Below are positions 21,680 to 30,640 of a stretch of 64,000 bases of DNA, one piece after another. Source of the stretch: Flavobacteriales bacterium UBA6770 (GTDB lineage: Bacteria > Bacteroidota > Bacteroidia > Flavobacteriales_G > Salibacteraceae); assembly GCA_905181875.1 (NCBI GenBank), contig CAJIZH010000004.1, positions 62,001 to 126,000 of the forward strand, read 5' to 3'. Numbering within the stretch: position 1 is the first letter of the stretch; each line of letters opens with the position of its first letter. The position numbers and the translations under genes were made by a program. Below the pieces are notes generated by a model. That model had not been told where the DNA came from. It did not search any database and worked only from the letters and a program-made list of their open reading frames with translations.

Positions 21680-23650
21680 ATGAAGATCCTTTTAGCAGCA
21701 CTTTTTGCACTCTTAATTTCTCTTTCTGGAATCACTCAAGATTTTAGAATTACAGAAAAAAAAGCGGCCAAAACTCACATCTTTTATCCTAGGCAAGTTT
21801 CCAACTTTTATGATGCTGGAATAAAACCTATTCAAGAATCACCTTATCCAAATGGTAAAGATTACCGTTCCTATTTAATGGAAGCAAAAACCAAATATGC
21901 GGTGGAACACAAACCTCGATATTTTGAAACAGCAGCTGGCGTTTCCAGAGCAGAACAGCCTCAAATAATTCAAGATTTTGGTACTTATTGGAATCATCCA
22001 ACTAATGGTCCATCATTGCATGATGGAGGAGGACCAAATGACAATTCAATGGCCTTTTCGAATGATGCATATTTAATGACTTCTTGGAACAGCGTTATTT
22101 ACGCTCATGACCTGCAGGCAGACACTCCTAGTTTCAATACGAACCCTTATTTGACGACGTTATCCTTTCAACAATTTGCTGGAGATATCACAACGAGCAG
22201 TCCTTTCGATCCAAAAATACTTTACGATCCTCAGGAAAATAAATTCGTGCTCTTATTTCTAAGTGGTCGTGGACCAAATGATTCTAAAACCGTAATTGGT
22301 TTCAGCACAACTAGCAATCCTGCTGACCCTTGGAATGTTTATGAAATTGATGGTAATCCACTAAATAATAACACTTGGACAGATTATCCTCAAGTTGCGT
22401 TAACCACAAACGAACTTTTCTATACTGTGAATCTCCTGAAAGCTGGCCAATCATGGATAGCTGGATTTGACAGAACTATTATATGGCAAATTGACAAACA
22501 CTCTGGGTTTAAAGGAGAAGATAGCCTTAAACTAAATCTTTGGGATTCAATTTATTACGACAATAAACCAGTCCGATACTTCAGACCCATAAAAACTGGT
22601 GCTGGCCCAGCTGGTCCAAATATGTACTTTCTTTCGAATAGAGGGGTACCTGTTGAATGGAATGACACTAAGGTGGTTGAAAATGACACTGTTTTCTTGA
22701 TTGAGGTTAATAATGAACGTGGAAAGTCACCTAAACTTTCAGTTAAACCATTAAAGGCAAATCAAACCTATCAGACACCGACAAATGCTACTCAAGCAGA
22801 AGGACATATTTTCTTTACCAATGATTCTAGAATTCTAGGTGGGTTTTATAACAACAACCAAATTCAATTTGTTGGAAATACAATGGATAAAACTACCAAT
22901 AGGCCTGCGGTGTATCACGGAGTTATTAAAAATGTGAATTCGACGCCAACGCTTAAGTTAAAAAACATTAGCTCTGGAACCTTAGATTATGGGTTTCCAA
23001 ACATAGCGTATACAGGAATTAAAACTTCAAACCAAAGTTCAGTGATTGGGTTTAACCATACTTCAGAAACTGCTCATGCTGGTTTTTCTTGTGTCTATTA
23101 TGATGGATCGGGAAGTTACTCTGCCACAAAAATGCTGGTCGAAGGAGATAGTTTAGTGGATATGAATGGTTGGTCGAACGGAGACAGAACCTATGAACGA
23201 TGGGGCGATTATTTTGGAATTCAACGAAACTTTCGTTCTCCAAAACAAGTTTGGCTAAACGGTTATTATGGAAAATCGAATCGAAGAAGTTCGGCCTGGA
23301 TTGTTCAAGTGAAAGTGCCTTTTGATGCTAATGATCCTGATGATGGAGTTGATACTTCTTATAATCCAGTCAGTTTAAATGAATATAAATTACAGTCTAA
23401 AAGTAAAGTTTACCCAAACCCGTCCAATGGGTCATTTAAAGTTCGGTTCAATTCAACTGCTGACCAATTTGTAAGCGTGAAAATAAACTCTATTAGTGGA
23501 TCTAAAAGTATTGAGCTACTTCAAGGAAATATAAAATCTGGAACCAACGAACTCAGCTTTCAAACCTTTGATTTGGCTAAGGGAATTTACCTACTGGATG
23601 TCTCTAGTACTAAAGAAATACTACTAAATAAAAAGATAGTTATTGAATAA
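21680..23650 (+). CDS. Secreted protein with T9SS type A C-terminal sorting domain
   Basis: Signal peptide; C-terminus KVYPNPSNGSFKVRFNS...GIYLLDVSSTKEILLNKKIVIE. Confidence 0.8.
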   Translation: MKILLAALFALLISLSGITQDFRITEKKAAKTHIFYPRQVSNFYDAGIKPIQESPYPNGKDYRSYLMEAKTKYAVEHKPRYFETAAGVSRAEQPQIIQDFGTYWNHPTNGPSLHDGGGPNDNSMAFSNDAYLMTSWNSVIYAHDLQADTPSFNTNPYLTTLSFQQFAGDITTSSPFDPKILYDPQENKFVLLFLSGRGPNDSKTVIGFSTTSNPADPWNVYEIDGNPLNNNTWTDYPQVALTTNELFYTVNLLKAGQSWIAGFDRTIIWQIDKHSGFKGEDSLKLNLWDSIYYDNKPVRYFRPIKTGAGPAGPNMYFLSNRGVPVEWNDTKVVENDTVFLIEVNNERGKSPKLSVKPLKANQTYQTPTNATQAEGHIFFTNDSRILGGFYNNNQIQFVGNTMDKTTNRPAVYHGVIKNVNSTPTLKLKNISSGTLDYGFPNIAYTGIKTSNQSSVIGFNHTSETAHAGFSCVYYDGSGSYSATKMLVEGDSLVDMNGWSNGDRTYERWGDYFGIQRNFRSPKQVWLNGYYGKSNRRSSAWIVQVKVPFDANDPDDGVDTSYNPVSLNEYKLQSKSKVYPNPSNGSFKVRFNSTADQFVSVKINSISGSKSIELLQGNIKSGTNELSFQTFDLAKGIYLLDVSSTKEILLNKKIVIE

Positions 23651-23657
23651 CTATCTT
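23633..23657. repeat. 25-bp perfect palindrome formed by the overlapping 3' ends of two convergent T9SS genes
   Basis: AAGATAGTTATT-G-AATAACTATCTT; TAA of the + gene at 23648-23650, TAA of the - gene at 23642-23640. Confidence 0.95.
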
Positions 23658-26600
23658 CTCATTTACAATGCCTTTGCTGTGTTTTAATTGAATAAAATAT
23701 ACTCCACTCTCCAAACTATTCACATCTAAATTGCACTGACTTCCTTTAGGTTCAGTAGCAGGTTTAACCACTATTTTACCGTTAATATCTTGTATAGAAA
23801 TTGAACTAACATCAAGGGTGTTTTTATTCCACTGAACGGTTACTTTATCTGTTGCAGGAATAGGAAATACTTCTACACTCATATTTGTATTAGACCCTGA
23901 AACTGACGATGCTTCAACGTTAAACTCAATCTCCACAGAATCTCTTCCACAGAAAGAAATGACTCTCATGAAAGCAAACTGAGTTCCACTACCTGAAAAC
24001 TGAACTATAGGGTTTTCTATTGTTGATTTTGTTCCATTTCCAAAAAACCAATACCAATCCGAACCACCTGGAGTTTCGGATTTGAATTCAAATAACCCAT
24101 TTCCCTTATTAACATAGCTGATTTCTGCTTTTGCTTTATCCTTGAAAGTTATATCATCTAGCGCCATGTCACTTCTTATTCCTCCACCAGTAATACCTCT
24201 AAATCGAATTCTGATTATACTTCCCTTATGAGCAGCTAAATCAATTTCATTATTCAGCCATTGTGTTCCTTTGTTTCCAGAAACAACTGGAGTTATATCG
24301 TTAGTCCATGCATTATTTTTAAAAACATCCACATGAAGAGCACCCATGTTTGCACCATACATATTATACCAATAGTTTAATTTAGGTGTTGTAGCATTTC
24401 TTAAATCAATACATGGACTAATTAGTATTGCTTCCTGATTATTGCAACCACCAGATGCTTCTAGGAAAATATATTTTCCTAGTCCATTTCCTAAAGTATG
24501 ATCTACAAAAGGTCCTGTTGTATTAGTTGGAGTTCCTGCGGCATCAACTCTCCAGTCAATATCATCTTCAGAACCATTAACTCCGTTTATCCAACCATCA
24601 CCCAGCGCACAGGTTGTTGCTCCGCAATCGTTATCTGCTCCACACAAATCTAGTTGTTCAAAATCATAGATATAACAAGGAAGTTTTTCTTGAGGATCCA
24701 AATAAACTTGAACATTTGCCACTATAGTATCGTTGAATCTATTTTGATCTTTTTTATCAACCAACCAAATTTTTAGCGTGTTAGAACCTTGCAAGTATTT
24801 TGCTTTTGTAGAGAATTTATATGGGATAGTTTGCCCTGCAGAAACAACTCCTGTATAAGTCTCATTTACAACTGGATCATTATTTACCTGAAAGAAAATA
24901 TCAATATTTGAAAAAGTTAAGCTCTCATTATTTTTAATTTCAATCTCGATGTCTTTACTTGTTGAGGATGACTCACAACTTACCACAGAACTAGCTCCTT
25001 TTGTGATTTGCGCAATTTCTACATCAGCATTTAATGGACAGTTTACTAAGCCCGGAGCTTTAATTATGGATTGAGTTCTGCGACTTTTGGTTCCATCTGG
25101 GGTTACAGCGTCCATAGCAAAATGCATTTCTTTAAATGGATTATAGTTTAATCCTTTGAATATGTAAGGAGATGAATTTTGAGTACCAACTACTTCCATG
25201 TATTTGGCTCCCATTGTGTAAATATTGTAATTGCTCGCACCAGAAATTGGAGTCCAAATCATTTCCATACTATCTGGACATATTTTGGTAATGTTAATAC
25301 CCGAAGGCTGAGGCGAAATAGTAAATGTTTCAGAAGAAGCTGTCATTAATGCCGAAGAAACTCGAACTCTTGCTTTTCCTGTAAATGCATTTGGAATTCT
25401 CCACTCATAATATCTGGTAGCGGGAGGAATATTAGAAATCATTGTAGACCAATTTTTACCACTATCTAGTGAAAATTCTAACAACAAGGTTCCTTTATTT
25501 AAAGGTGCACTCCAACGAACAACTTCATTTTCTCCGGGTACAAATGATTCTCCACCAATAGGGTATTCTAGTTCAATTCCTTCATCTTCTAAATAATATA
25601 TTACGTGATATTTTTGGGGACCCTGAGCAATCGCTGAACCTTTAACAATAATCTCATAATTACCCACTGGCATATTAGAGATTACAATTTGTTCCATGTT
25701 ATTTAGGTTATCTACTCCAGTCGTAGCAGGATTATCAAGTGTTGACGGGCTAGATATATCTAAAATAAAAGGAAGCGTTTTTTGATTTCCTGGAGCTATT
25801 AATTCGAGATCCAAGTTATTCACTAGAGGTATTGCAGCGTTAACTGCTCCACGAGGATCATTCCAAGCCAACATTATTTTTGCCAATTTTTTATTTGCAG
25901 GAATAATAATTTGGTGCGTATCTATTTTCCCGTTTGCAATAGTTCCTGAAAAATGAGTTTGTTCATCAATTACTTGGTACGCTTTTCTGGCATTAATTCT
26001 TCCGTAACCGAATTTAAAATCTGGTCCTAGCTGTCCAAGATCATCAGCAGTATTGCAGGCAATGCCCTTCATTAAAATTGCATCGGGATAATTGTTGCTG
26101 TTTTTTTCTTTAAATCCTTGGTATAGAACTGCCATTGTTCCTGAAACCCCTGGACAAGACATTGATGTTCCTGTTTTAAAAACATAATCGTTAACATCAG
26201 TTGTACTCCAAACTTGAGTACCAACCGCAGAAATTTCAGGCTTTATTCGACCATCTCTTGATGGACCCCTGCTACTTGAACTAGTCAGACCGTCTAAATA
26301 ATTCAAATTAGCTACGGTTAATACATTCTTCGCTACTTTATGACCACCTGTTATATTGTACCAACCCCCATTTGCAGTTCCCGCATTACCTGCAGAAAAT
26401 ACATGCAATAATGACGACATATTCTCTGTTTGAATATCTAATTCACGGGCAAAACTGGTATAGCCTGCGTTCTGACCATTTGAATATGATGTACTCGTGA
26501 TTTTAATATCGTGTTTTATATAATGACTTGCAATAGAATCAAATCCAGGGTATCCCTCACCTGCTGCGCCGTAAACATAAATTGTAGACGCTGGAGCCAT

Positions 26601-27455
26601 TCCGCGAGCCAGTGGATCTAAATTCCCCGCCCCCATAATAGTACCGCCAACATGATCTCCATGATCACCGTTATTTGTAGTTATGTATTGTTTTCCTATT
26701 CTTCCCGCATAATCCAAATGAGGTCCGATAACTCCGTCATCTTGAAGCATAACACTTATGCCCTCTCCATCAAGTTCTTTACTTAAACCAGTGTAGGATT
26801 TAGTTAACCCTCCTATTCTATGAGCATTTCTTGCTTTATAATTTTCTACCTGTCCCAATTCATCTATTGGCTCGATAAACTGAATACATTCAATTTCCGC
26901 TAATGCATTCAAATTAACTGCTGGAATTTCTAGTCTATAACTCGAAGCTCTTGAACTAAACCGAATTATCTCTGCATTGACTCTAGCAAGCTTTTCTGTA
27001 ATTAACTTTTCGTTCAGATTAGAAAAAGTAACTACGTTAACTCTTACAGATGCTCCAAAAATCATGTGTTCTGGTAATCTGGTATGATTAGCCATTGAAG
27101 GATCGAATTTCATATTAACTGGAATATCAGACAATCCGTTAATTCCAAAAGCGACCAATTGATCGTGATCAACATTATTAGTAATTGTTATGTAATATGC
27201 CTTATTGCCCAAATAATCTCCGACGAAAAGACCTAATGATGCCAAAACCTTAATTTGACCATTATTTATGAAATTACCTGTAATGACTATACCCGTGAAT
27301 GGGTTAGCTTCAGTTGCCCCTTTCAGTAATTCTTTAGATATCACATGTTCTATTTCCAATGTTCCACTTAATAACTCTAAGCGAGTAGATTCATATTGAG
27401 AGACTGCGCTTAATGAAATTGCGAGGAAAACCAGTAACGAAAATATTCTTAACAT
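23640..27455 (-). CDS. S8 (subtilisin-like) serine peptidase with T9SS type A sorting domain
   Basis: Asp LQDDGVIGPHLDYAG, His GDHGDHVGGTIMGAG, Ser TGTSMSCPGVSGTMA; MAM-like region; VEVFPIPATDKVTVQW...KIVIQ. Confidence 0.9.
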   Translation of the reverse strand: MLRIFSLLVFLAISLSAVSQYESTRLELLSGTLEIEHVISKELLKGATEANPFTGIVITGNFINNGQIKVLASLGLFVGDYLGNKAYYITITNNVDHDQLVAFGINGLSDIPVNMKFDPSMANHTRLPEHMIFGASVRVNVVTFSNLNEKLITEKLARVNAEIIRFSSRASSYRLEIPAVNLNALAEIECIQFIEPIDELGQVENYKARNAHRIGGLTKSYTGLSKELDGEGISVMLQDDGVIGPHLDYAGRIGKQYITTNNGDHGDHVGGTIMGAGNLDPLARGMAPASTIYVYGAAGEGYPGFDSIASHYIKHDIKITSTSYSNGQNAGYTSFARELDIQTENMSSLLHVFSAGNAGTANGGWYNITGGHKVAKNVLTVANLNYLDGLTSSSSRGPSRDGRIKPEISAVGTQVWSTTDVNDYVFKTGTSMSCPGVSGTMAVLYQGFKEKNSNNYPDAILMKGIACNTADDLGQLGPDFKFGYGRINARKAYQVIDEQTHFSGTIANGKIDTHQIIIPANKKLAKIMLAWNDPRGAVNAAIPLVNNLDLELIAPGNQKTLPFILDISSPSTLDNPATTGVDNLNNMEQIVISNMPVGNYEIIVKGSAIAQGPQKYHVIYYLEDEGIELEYPIGGESFVPGENEVVRWSAPLNKGTLLLEFSLDSGKNWSTMISNIPPATRYYEWRIPNAFTGKARVRVSSALMTASSETFTISPQPSGINITKICPDSMEMIWTPISGASNYNIYTMGAKYMEVVGTQNSSPYIFKGLNYNPFKEMHFAMDAVTPDGTKSRRTQSIIKAPGLVNCPLNADVEIAQITKGASSVVSCESSSTSKDIEIEIKNNESLTFSNIDIFFQVNNDPVVNETYTGVVSAGQTIPYKFSTKAKYLQGSNTLKIWLVDKKDQNRFNDTIVANVQVYLDPQEKLPCYIYDFEQLDLCGADNDCGATTCALGDGWINGVNGSEDDIDWRVDAAGTPTNTTGPFVDHTLGNGLGKYIFLEASGGCNNQEAILISPCIDLRNATTPKLNYWYNMYGANMGALHVDVFKNNAWTNDITPVVSGNKGTQWLNNEIDLAAHKGSIIRIRFRGITGGGIRSDMALDDITFKDKAKAEISYVNKGNGLFEFKSETPGGSDWYWFFGNGTKSTIENPIVQFSGSGTQFAFMRVISFCGRDSVEIEFNVEASSVSGSNTNMSVEVFPIPATDKVTVQWNKNTLDVSSISIQDINGKIVVKPATEPKGSQCNLDVNSLESGVYFIQLKHSKGIVNEKIVIQ

Positions 27456-27681: not shown

Positions 27682-28374
27682 ATGATTTTAAGAAAACTTG
27701 CAATTGTAGCGCTCGGAGCAGCTGCACTTACTTCATGTAAAGAAGGAGGCGACTCAATGGAAGGAGCTGCTTTGACAACTAACTGGGATAGCTTAAGCTA
27801 CAGTATTGGAATTAGTGTAGGAAACGGTCTAAAAGGACAACAATTGAGTGACGTTTCTCCAAAAGTAATTGCTCAAGGAATTAATGATGTTTTAGATAGC
27901 ACAGCTCTTATTGATGACGAGGAAGCAAATGCTATAATTGGAGCTTTTATGGATAAAAAGAGAAACGAAAAATCTGCAAAGGCTACCTCAGCTTCTGAAG
28001 GATTTTTAGAAGAAAATGCTAAAAACCCAGACGTAGTCACAACTGGATCTGGACTTCAGTATATTGTTATTCAAGAAGGAACAGGTGATAAACCTTCATC
28101 AACTGATAAAGTAAAGGTTCATTACCATGGAACATTGGTTAATGGCAACGTATTTGATAGTTCAGTTGATCGCGGAGAGCCTATAGAATTCCCGGTAAAT
28201 GGAGTTATTCCTGGTTGGGTTGAAGGCCTGCAATTAATGTCAGTTGGATCTAAATACAAGTTTTTCATTCCTTCAGAATTGGCATATGGCGAAAGAGGTG
28301 CGGGACAAATGATTGGACCTGGAGAGACGCTGATATTTGAAGTTGAATTACTTGGTATAACAAAAGGTGAATAA
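27682..28374 (+). CDS. FKBP-type peptidyl-prolyl cis-trans isomerase, lipoprotein
   Basis: Lipobox AALTSC; FKBP domain VHYHGTLVNGNVFDSSVDRGEPIEFPVNGVIPGWVEGLQLM. Confidence 0.93.
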   Translation: MILRKLAIVALGAAALTSCKEGGDSMEGAALTTNWDSLSYSIGISVGNGLKGQQLSDVSPKVIAQGINDVLDSTALIDDEEANAIIGAFMDKKRNEKSAKATSASEGFLEENAKNPDVVTTGSGLQYIVIQEGTGDKPSSTDKVKVHYHGTLVNGNVFDSSVDRGEPIEFPVNGVIPGWVEGLQLMSVGSKYKFFIPSELAYGERGAGQMIGPGETLIFEVELLGITKGE

Positions 28375-28376
28375 TT

Positions 28377-29093
28377 ATGAAAATTAGAATAATAACACTA
28401 GCAGTTTTCTTAGGATTATTTTCTACCGCAATTGCTGGTAAGAAAGCAAAAAAAGATAAGAAAAGAACGAAAACCGAAACAAAAAATATGGAATTAAAAA
28501 ACGAATTGGACTCACTATCTTACGCATTAGGAATTAGTATAGCGAACAACTTAAAATCTCAAGGTGTAGATGACATCAACTCTGCTGCAATGTCTGCAGC
28601 AGTAAAAGACGTTTATGCTGGAAACGATTCAATAATGAAGACTGATGACGCTAATGAATTTATCAATAGCTATTTTGCTGGAGCGGCAGAAAAAAAATCA
28701 GGAGAAGCTCAGGTAGAGGGAAAAAAATTCCTAGCTGAAAATGCAACTAAAGATGGTGTAATTGTACTTAAAAGTGGATTACAATACAAGGTTATTAAAA
28801 TGGGCGAAGGTCCTAAACCAAGCAAAGACGATAAAGTGACAACACATTATCATGGAATGCTTGTGGATGGGACTGTTTTCGATAGCTCAGTTGATCGTGG
28901 CGAACCTGCTACTTTCCCAGTTGGTGGAGTTATTCCTGGTTGGGTTGAAGCACTTCAGTTAATGCCAGTTGGATCAAAATGGAGATTATTTATTCCTTCA
29001 GAATTAGCTTATGGTGATAGAGGAGCTGGACCAAAAATCGGCCCTGGCGCAACTCTAGTTTTCGAAGTAGAGCTTTTAAGTATTGCTCAGTAA
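28377..29093 (+). CDS. FKBP-type peptidyl-prolyl cis-trans isomerase, tandem paralogue
   Basis: THYHGMLVDGTVFDSSVDRGEPATFPVGGVIPGWVEALQLMPVGSKWRLFIPSELAYG. Confidence 0.93.
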   Translation: MKIRIITLAVFLGLFSTAIAGKKAKKDKKRTKTETKNMELKNELDSLSYALGISIANNLKSQGVDDINSAAMSAAVKDVYAGNDSIMKTDDANEFINSYFAGAAEKKSGEAQVEGKKFLAENATKDGVIVLKSGLQYKVIKMGEGPKPSKDDKVTTHYHGMLVDGTVFDSSVDRGEPATFPVGGVIPGWVEALQLMPVGSKWRLFIPSELAYGDRGAGPKIGPGATLVFEVELLSIAQ

Positions 29094-29113
29094 TAGCTAC
29101 AAAACATATTAAT

Positions 29114-29143
29114 AAAGAAAGGCGCTAATAGCGCCTTTCTTTA
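29114..29143. terminator. Bidirectional terminator between the FKBP pair and nnr
   Basis: AAAGAAAGGCGC-TAATA-GCGCCTTTCTTT; overlaps the nnr stop codon (29141-29143). Confidence 0.8.
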
Positions 29144-30640
29144 TACTTCAAATAGTTGAAATGCTAAAGGTATTGATTCAATAATATCCCCTGCATTCAT
29201 AGCTTCCTCTCCAAGTTTTTCGGCAGCAATATCTCCAGCTAAACCATGCAGATAAACTCCAAGTATTGCTGCATACATTGGATGATACTTACGAGCCAAT
29301 AAACCTGTAATTAACCCTGAGAGCACGTCCCCACTGCCTGCAGTAGCCATTCCTGGATTTCCTGTTGAATTGTAATATACTCTTCCATCAGGAAGTGATA
29401 TTTGTGAATTTGGACCTTTTAGAATAACAATGCACTCAAACTTTTTGGAAAACTCTATTTGTGCTTTAAGCCTATCAAATGAATCTTCAGTATTTACAAT
29501 TAAGCGCTTAAACTCTCCAAGATGCGGAGTAAAAATTGAATTTTGAGGAATAAAACTTAACCAGGTTTTATTTTCAGATAAAATATTGAGTGCATCTGCA
29601 TCGATCAACATTGGTACTTTACAATTCTGAATTAAAGCCTTCAGAAAGTTCGTACTAGATTTACCAACTCCAATTCCTGGTCCTATTCCAATTGAAGTAT
29701 AAGCATCAATTGCAGGAACCGAAGATATTTCTTCATCACCAAGCAACACTGACATAGCTTCTGGACAACTCACTTGCAACGGAATTAAAAGCGAATCAGG
29801 TATCCCCATCGTAAGTAAACCTACACCGGACCGCATTGCAGCCTTTGCTGATAGAATTGCTGCACCTCCTTTAGTTTTACTTCCAGCGACCATTAGAGCG
29901 TGACCAAAACTTCCTTTATAATTATGCTTTTGTCTAGGTTGTAAAATTTCTGAAATTTCTTGTGGTTGTATATAATTATAGGTTGATTCTGCATCTTCAA
30001 TAAACCTGTTGTCCAGTCCTATATCTAATAACTTCCAATCTCCTACTCGGTTTGCATTTTCCGAAATAAAAAAACTATGAGGTGGCGTCTGAAAAGTTAA
30101 TGAAACATTTGCTTCAATAGAGGTTTGGTCTTTTTGATTCATCGTATCCATGAACAAACCTGCAGGCACGTCAATGGAAATAATAAACTTTCCTGATGCA
30201 TTTAATTCTTGAACGCTCTGTTTAAGCAGTCCTTTCAGCTGCTTATTTAAACCCGAACCCAACAAAGCATCAATTAAGATATAGCCACTTTTTATATTGA
30301 TTTTATCAGATTCCGAATAATCTTCGGTTTCAATAGACAACTTTTTAAGTCTTTCCAGGTTAGTTACAAAATCTTTTGAGTCATTTTCAGAAAATCGAAT
30401 TATCGAAACCTCTACCTTATAGTTTTCTGCAATTAATAGTCTCGCTATGGCAAGGCCATCTCCACCATTATTTCCTGTTCCGCAAAATACTTGGAATTTA
30501 GACTCCTCTGAAAAATTCTTCAGAATCCAACTTACACAAGCCTTAGCAGCCCGCTCCATCAGATCAATAGAACTTATTGGCTCATTCTTGATCGAAAATT
30601 TATCTGCGGTTCTTTTTTGTTGAGAACTAAGAATTTTCAT
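29141..30640 (-). CDS. nnr: Bifunctional NAD(P)H-hydrate epimerase / ADP-dependent NAD(P)H-hydrate dehydratase
   Basis: FCGTGNNGGDGLAIARLL (epimerase) and KHNYKGSFGHALMVAGSKTKGGAAILSAKAAMRSGVG, GNPGMATAGSGDVLSGLITGLLAR (dehydratase). Confidence 0.93.
   Translation of the reverse strand: MKILSSQQKRTADKFSIKNEPISSIDLMERAAKACVSWILKNFSEESKFQVFCGTGNNGGDGLAIARLLIAENYKVEVSIIRFSENDSKDFVTNLERLKKLSIETEDYSESDKINIKSGYILIDALLGSGLNKQLKGLLKQSVQELNASGKFIISIDVPAGLFMDTMNQKDQTSIEANVSLTFQTPPHSFFISENANRVGDWKLLDIGLDNRFIEDAESTYNYIQPQEISEILQPRQKHNYKGSFGHALMVAGSKTKGGAAILSAKAAMRSGVGLLTMGIPDSLLIPLQVSCPEAMSVLLGDEEISSVPAIDAYTSIGIGPGIGVGKSSTNFLKALIQNCKVPMLIDADALNILSENKTWLSFIPQNSIFTPHLGEFKRLIVNTEDSFDRLKAQIEFSKKFECIVILKGPNSQISLPDGRVYYNSTGNPGMATAGSGDVLSGLITGLLARKYHPMYAAILGVYLHGLAGDIAAEKLGEEAMNAGDIIESIPLAFQLFEV

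Follow-up and report, generated by a model that had tools for sequence, protein, structure and literature searches.

A conserved, covarying palindrome at the shared stop ends of two convergent T9SS genes

By comparing one locus in four genomes of a single genus, we found that the stop ends of two convergent, overlapping genes form a palindrome whose arm sequences differ among congeners yet stay palindromic. On the basis of these four genomes and this single locus, the palindrome holds up as real, conserved and non-random. The best explanation, to which we give a probability of roughly 0.55, is that the site is a coding quasi-palindrome under concerted evolution, in which template switching would supply mirrored changes, the tolerance of both proteins would let them pass and a function of the hairpin would help to retain them.

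The gene pair and the geometry of its overlap

The features discussed below are as follows; coordinates refer to the window, that is, the whole stretch of 64,000 nucleotides that was analysed.

21680–23650, + strand: gene of a 656-aa protein with a T9SS type A sorting domain and an N-terminal stretch resembling a signal peptide
23408–23644, + strand: Por_Secre_tail sorting domain of the + gene, residues 577–655
23625–23665, no strand: extended quasi-palindrome with 20-nt arms, 18/20 complementary (90%); a perfect 41 bp in the sister genome G002
23633–23657, no strand: perfect palindrome with 12-nt arms, encoding KIVIE* on + and KIVIQ* on −
23640–23650, no strand: 11-bp CDS overlap TTATTGAATAA, with the stop of each gene inside the partner gene
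23640–27455, − strand: gene of a 1271-aa S8 subtilase bearing MAM and T9SS type A sorting domains
23646–23870, − strand: Por_Secre_tail sorting domain of the − gene, residues 1196–1270
29112–29144, both strands: bidirectional intrinsic terminator at the next convergent junction, intergenic, with a 15-bp stem and a GGCGC core

By the domain test, both genes classify as T9SS type A cargo genes, as the preliminary description of this DNA had held. The + and − proteins score 44.8 and 51.6 bits against PF18962 (curated cut-off 27), and 29.5 and 38.5 bits against TIGR04183 (curated cut-off 23). Outside its sorting domain, the + protein returned zero Pfam or NCBIfam domains in the profile search, and its homologues are present throughout the family. 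The subtilase gene is adjoined by two tandem FKBP-type peptidyl-prolyl isomerase-like genes (27682–29093), which were named from sequence alone. As in the T9SS C-terminal motif (KLIKK-type ends, PMC11285876), both protein ends carry the conserved lysine and a hydrophobic β7 strand. Secretion of P. gingivalis cargo requires the T9SS C-terminal strand, conserved lysine included (PMC11285876), and for this reason both palindrome arms are probably under real protein constraint. The arms are both coding, in keeping with the earlier proposal that two proteins constrain the palindrome at once, and the encoded ends are conserved at the protein level, as K-[IVL]-[VI]-I-[EQ] in both proteins in 4/4 genomes; the site thereby classifies as a coding palindrome.

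Re-reading of the sequence reproduced the palindrome's coordinates, letters, reading frames and 11-bp overlap exactly as first described. Positions 23633–23657 form a perfect 25-bp palindrome, AAGATAGTTATT G AATAACTATCTT, with the central G at 23645. The + strand ends AAG ATA GTT ATT GAA TAA and closes the ORF 21680–23650, and the − strand ends AAG ATA GTT ATT CAA TAA and closes the ORF 23640–27455. A whole-genome search found the palindrome once in the source genome, with zero further matches when up to 3 mismatches were allowed. Two TAA stops and an 11-bp overlap make the innermost 11 bp necessarily TTAnnnnnTAA; with ATT as the penultimate codon on both strands, the centre becomes TTATTNAATAA, in which a stop is avoided only if N is G or C. 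The difference between the E and Q ends is thus forced, because the last codons are NAA and complement-N AA, and GAA/CAA is the sole non-stop pair; one protein ends in E and its partner in Q in 4/4 genus genomes. The innermost 11 bp therefore follow from the overlap geometry together with the protein motif, and the arms beyond these 11 bp are left unaccounted for by both. A second convergent pair with the same 11-bp overlap, TTATTCAATAA, lies in the source genome at G000 C3:202191-202201 (L217:892-902), where the proteins end in LIQ and VIE. This pair is unrelated and not of T9SS type, and its arms do not extend past the overlap.

Conservation and covariation within the genus

The genus comparison comprises G000 (the source genome), its sister G002 (CAJVZZ010000007.1), G001 (PAME01000014.1) and G003 (CAKZKD010000005.1), the most distant of the four; the three accessions are MAGs labelled Flavobacteriales or Crocinitomicaceae. 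The preliminary description had named non-overlapping ends with unrelated codons in sister genomes as the sign of a one-off coincidence. The opposite was found, with the overlap and a covarying palindrome in 3/3 congeners. The two genes are adjacent, with an identical 11-bp overlap, in all three, although identity across the four genomes falls to 65% for one protein and 61% for the other. The C-terminal ends are KIVIE/KIVIQ in G000 and G002, KVVIE/KVVIQ in G001 and KLIIE/KLIIQ in G003; the perfect palindrome measures 25 bp in G000, 41 in G002, 31 in G001 and 33 in G003, with the different arm sequences AAGATAGTTATT, AAGGTAGTTATT and (GCAA)AAGTTGATTATT. A shared assembly artefact is unlikely, since four contigs (125–496 kb) bear different palindromes. 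A search of genome contigs for further congeners returned the same three relatives and distant homologues only, and a family-wide search of 35 genomes found zero sites of such form outside the genus.

In the four-sequence alignment, 7 of the 19 stem pairs have changed on both sides, and 93.4% of the cells are paired. The covariation score for these four sequences is 0.368 versus 0.144 when shuffled; 0/500 shuffles attain the observed value, and slid partners give at most 0.167. Between 5 and 16 nt from the centre, the arms are 0.82–1.0 identical to each other, compared with an orthologue identity to G003 of 0.45–0.55; from 20 nt outward the inter-arm identity falls to 0.07–0.4, i.e. background. 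Clusters of mirrored changes separate G003 from the other three genomes, and two mirrored changes lie within a single codon (ATA/GTA to TTG). Inversion of the spacer is one possible mark of template switching; the central G is identical in all four genomes and never flipped. If G001 is used to set the polarity, the codon in the common ancestor of G000 and G002 was probably AAA on the + strand and AAG on the − strand, and G002 probably regained its perfect palindrome via a synonymous AAA to AAG change, a state that a compensatory point mutation would yield equally.

In rough null models for four taxa, in which 11 arm positions evolved independently from a perfect ancestor at approximately the observed orthologue distances, no more than 3 inter-arm mismatches in 44 arose with P 1.3e-5 to 2.8e-5 (~2e-5), likewise with a two-state alphabet mimicking codon constraint; at 60% of the orthologue distances, P was 0.003. 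As a further baseline, 20 T9SS gene ends were paired at random within each of G000, G001 and G003. Such pairs share ~6.5–7/15 nt, and the palindrome pair shares 13–15/15. In G000 the random-pair values are raised, apparently by duplicated ends that are near-identical. A genome-wide codon preference at T9SS ends was rejected as the cause, as these codons are not common to the other T9SS ends of the same genomes. Among the T9SS ends of G000, those at L187, L188, L190 and L194 (C1 and C3) are near-identical (EFKVFKE/D), suggesting recently duplicated cargo genes, and a TTC microsatellite stands immediately 3' of one T9SS gene stop (L183, G000:C1 near 184690).

The hairpin, its neighbours and comparable sites

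It had been suggested that the palindrome acts as a hairpin at both 3' ends, and the predicted folds agree with this on both strands. The predicted energy is −18.6 to −20.7 kcal/mol in 7/8 transcript ends, with z between −4.0 and −8.7 in 8/8. In G000 the predicted folds reach −10.5 kcal/mol for the + transcript, where two outer-stem mismatches are tolerated, and −18.8 kcal/mol for the − transcript. A stable hairpin at the 3' end, one feature of a terminator, is thus present by prediction. The other, a G+C-rich stem followed by a T run, is absent: the perfect stem holds 2 G-C pairs, and the palindrome was not listed by the terminator scan. Judged by this AT-rich stem, the palindrome is not a canonical intrinsic terminator, although the hairpin may still work like one; the stretches beyond the stem core are U-rich. 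The neighbouring terminator at 29112–29144 resembles the palindrome in being a perfect inverted repeat with A/T-rich flanks at a convergent junction. It is present in 4/4 congeners, flanked by an A-tract and a T-tract, with a GGCGC core that never changes and a loop that does, and its arm GC is 0.40–0.56 versus 0.16–0.27 in the palindrome. The palindrome differs from this local example of a canonical terminator: the terminator combines an invariant core with a variable loop between genes, whereas the palindrome combines a changing AT-rich stem with an invariant centre in coding sequence.

Three more general causes of such a hairpin were considered and rejected. A 464-kb sample of the source genome contains 37 other compact convergent junctions (gap <120 bp), where perfect stems measure 3–7 bp, bar the intergenic terminator at 29112–29144, versus 12 bp at the palindrome; most of these junctions are without any hairpin, so that a hairpin is not generally required there. 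Nor does the genus keep every in-CDS hairpin, two accidental ones being lost in relatives: that at 1073–1100 (12-bp perfect, AT-rich, inside a CDS) is broken in the sister G002, and that at 24461–24482 is broken in G001 and G003. Finally, 105 unrelated sites that share the end motif, spread over 119 Bacteroidia genomes, show a mirror match of 2.11/7 versus 2.18 permuted, which speaks against a general stop-overlapping hairpin at T9SS-type ends in Bacteroidia.

Outside the genus, a class-wide search matched the pattern in 9 genomes; in most of them just one strand carries a T9SS end and the arms are imperfect. The wider scan for similar pairs that had been advised turned up, among 395 Bacteroidia genomes, a single independent case: a convergent T9SS-type pair in G224, a member of another family (G224:C36:218998-219022; L129:1501-1525), whose 12-nt arms are perfect. 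This pair has an 11-bp overlap and the ends KIIIQ/KIIIE, but its fold is not significant (z ~ −1.2), and it is absent from the relatives of G224 and not kept in its genus. Such geometry can arise elsewhere; long-term maintenance is seen only in the source genus. Further out, 46–60 nt from the centre, the two G224 ends are identical over 14 nt, GGAATTTATTTTCT (the start of GIYFL). In another genome, at G204:C59:5202-7363 (L131, L133, L134), three repeated units lie 1.0–1.2 kb apart, each closing with KLIIQ*, an end of T9SS type, and followed downstream by one and the same imperfect mirror sequence.

Origin and maintenance of the palindrome

The mechanism that we favour would run as follows. Because of the 11-bp overlap, the required K-[IVL]-[VI]-I codons of the two genes face each other across a shared centre and make up an inverted repeat, one gene to each arm. 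A change in one arm could then be copied into the other if the polymerase switched template within the hairpin, a process called quasi-palindrome correction, and the mirrored change would survive in both genes at once, tolerated because both proteins accept the same K-x-x-I end. The restored hairpin would be kept by selection, since it would form where each transcript finishes and probably helps to end or protect both of them. As for its beginning, the end of the − gene would have been written as an inverted copy of the end of the + gene when the two came to overlap. Subtilase orthologues in other genera end in LVIAR, IIAR, VVQ, IHR and similar, while two orthologues of the + gene end in EKIVIE and EKVIVE, so that the − end looks like the copy; judging from these orthologues, this would be the likeliest origin. 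We infer both the template-switch step and the RNA-level function from the patterns described above. Template switching is favoured by the DNA-level identity of the arms, by the clustering of mirrored changes, by the occurrence of the hairpin where both proteins accept the same end, and by the consideration that a two-strand hairpin has no neutral intermediate to pass through, because a single transition leaves a G-U pair on one strand and an A-C mismatch on the other.

Mirrored changes from template switching and from ordinary compensatory selection have the same end product. Concerted evolution could be purely mutational, with template switching keeping the arms identical, the proteins tolerating the outcome and the hairpin having no RNA function. 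The inner arms are indeed identical at the DNA level, beyond mere pairability, and several changes are mirrored, two of them in one codon; compact convergent junctions show no general need for a hairpin, there is no mirror-match excess after the 105 unrelated ends in Bacteroidia, and the stem is without the GC core of the neighbouring terminator. Even so, we regard this version as unlikely, if the more serious of the rivals, because the predicted stability persists in 7/8 transcript ends despite changes in the stem, which favours selection on the hairpin and would be unexpected under drift, and because U-rich stretches follow the stem core. At the other extreme, selection alone could maintain a bidirectional transcript-end hairpin through ordinary compensatory point mutations. 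This would accord with the covariation and with the stability predicted on both strands, and there is precedent in E. coli, where in 19/58 convergent overlaps one gene uses a rho-independent terminator necessarily inside coding sequence (PMC2174442). However, both proteins would have to accept every change, a hairpin needed on both strands would have no neutral intermediate, and the stem has few G-C pairs and is not terminator-like by the scan, while the terminator at 29112–29144 keeps its GGCGC core in 4/4 genomes; we therefore consider this account improbable.

Two further explanations have very little probability in our judgement. Chance agreement of codon choice between two T9SS-motif ends can draw on the fact that K-[IVL]-[VI]-I ends are common, that the overlap TTATTSAATAA gives the innermost 11 bp by itself, as it also does at C3:202191-202201, and that the unrelated G224 has a perfect case with KIIIQ/KIIIE ends. 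But chance would then have struck in three lineages, each time with other codons (P ~2e-5 under independence), T9SS ends within the same genomes mismatch each other, and the relatives of G224 are without the pair. An exchange by gene conversion or recombination that took in both entire sorting domains, inverted with respect to each other, is hardly more credible. Both sorting domains are homologous in family, and cross-strand copying would yield mirrored changes. For the sorting-domain ends, where the preliminary description had raised it, gene conversion is too broad a term, because the inter-end identity stops 15–20 nt from the centre and the remaining sorting domains are unrelated at the DNA level; with identity at background past ~20 nt, the tract is too short for ordinary homologous conversion, and short-range template switching fits better.

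Template switching as we invoke it for the coding quasi-palindrome has close parallels. It is documented as maker and mender of perfect stems (PMC8794818, PMC7202029), also in coding DNA (PMC8604942), and for quasi-palindromes both bacteria and yeast furnish examples, from RNA stems as well as from coding DNA (PMC7202029, PMC8794818, PMC8604942). Like quasi-palindrome correction in E. coli, yeast and RNA gene stems, the present case involves a short, close-armed inverted repeat with mirrored multi-base changes, and its arms would likewise be mended to identity; unlike those cases, its arms lie in two convergent genes, for which they encode the same signal, and the effect extends across the species of a genus. 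In the mitochondrial coding palindromes of Nematomorpha, for which template switching has been proposed to explain concerted evolution of the arms, both arms likewise encode conserved amino acids (PMC6649704), but these palindromes lie within single genes and reach up to 284 bp, whereas the present one joins the stop ends of opposite genes over 25–41 bp. The E. coli convergent overlaps share with it the overlapping 3' ends and the hairpin in coding sequence (PMC2174442); there, however, the hairpin is the rho-independent terminator of one partner (or there are two different ones), and here one symmetric AT-rich hairpin arises from both sets of C-terminal codons. Our literature search on T9SS, palindromes and convergent genes found no paper, and no report on the T9SS C-terminal motif in which the ends of two cargo genes are coupled; as far as the literature searched shows, such a palindrome is apparently undescribed for T9SS genes.

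Concerted evolution normally concerns repeats of the same gene, whereas here two unrelated proteins are coupled by the geometry of an overlap, and their ends appear to evolve as a single unit across four related species. More tentatively, and at somewhat less than even odds, the site may be a self-copying coding palindrome, in which an accepted change in one secretion-signal end would be template-switched into that of its partner, so that unrelated cargo genes would share an evolving C-terminus and a two-strand transcript-end hairpin. Since both arms are probably also under protein constraint, the locus lends itself to telling template-switch mutation and compensatory selection cleanly apart, a question that RNA stems still pose. 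It also carries a warning: where two proteins show parallel amino-acid changes, a single event in the DNA, and not adaptation, may be the cause.
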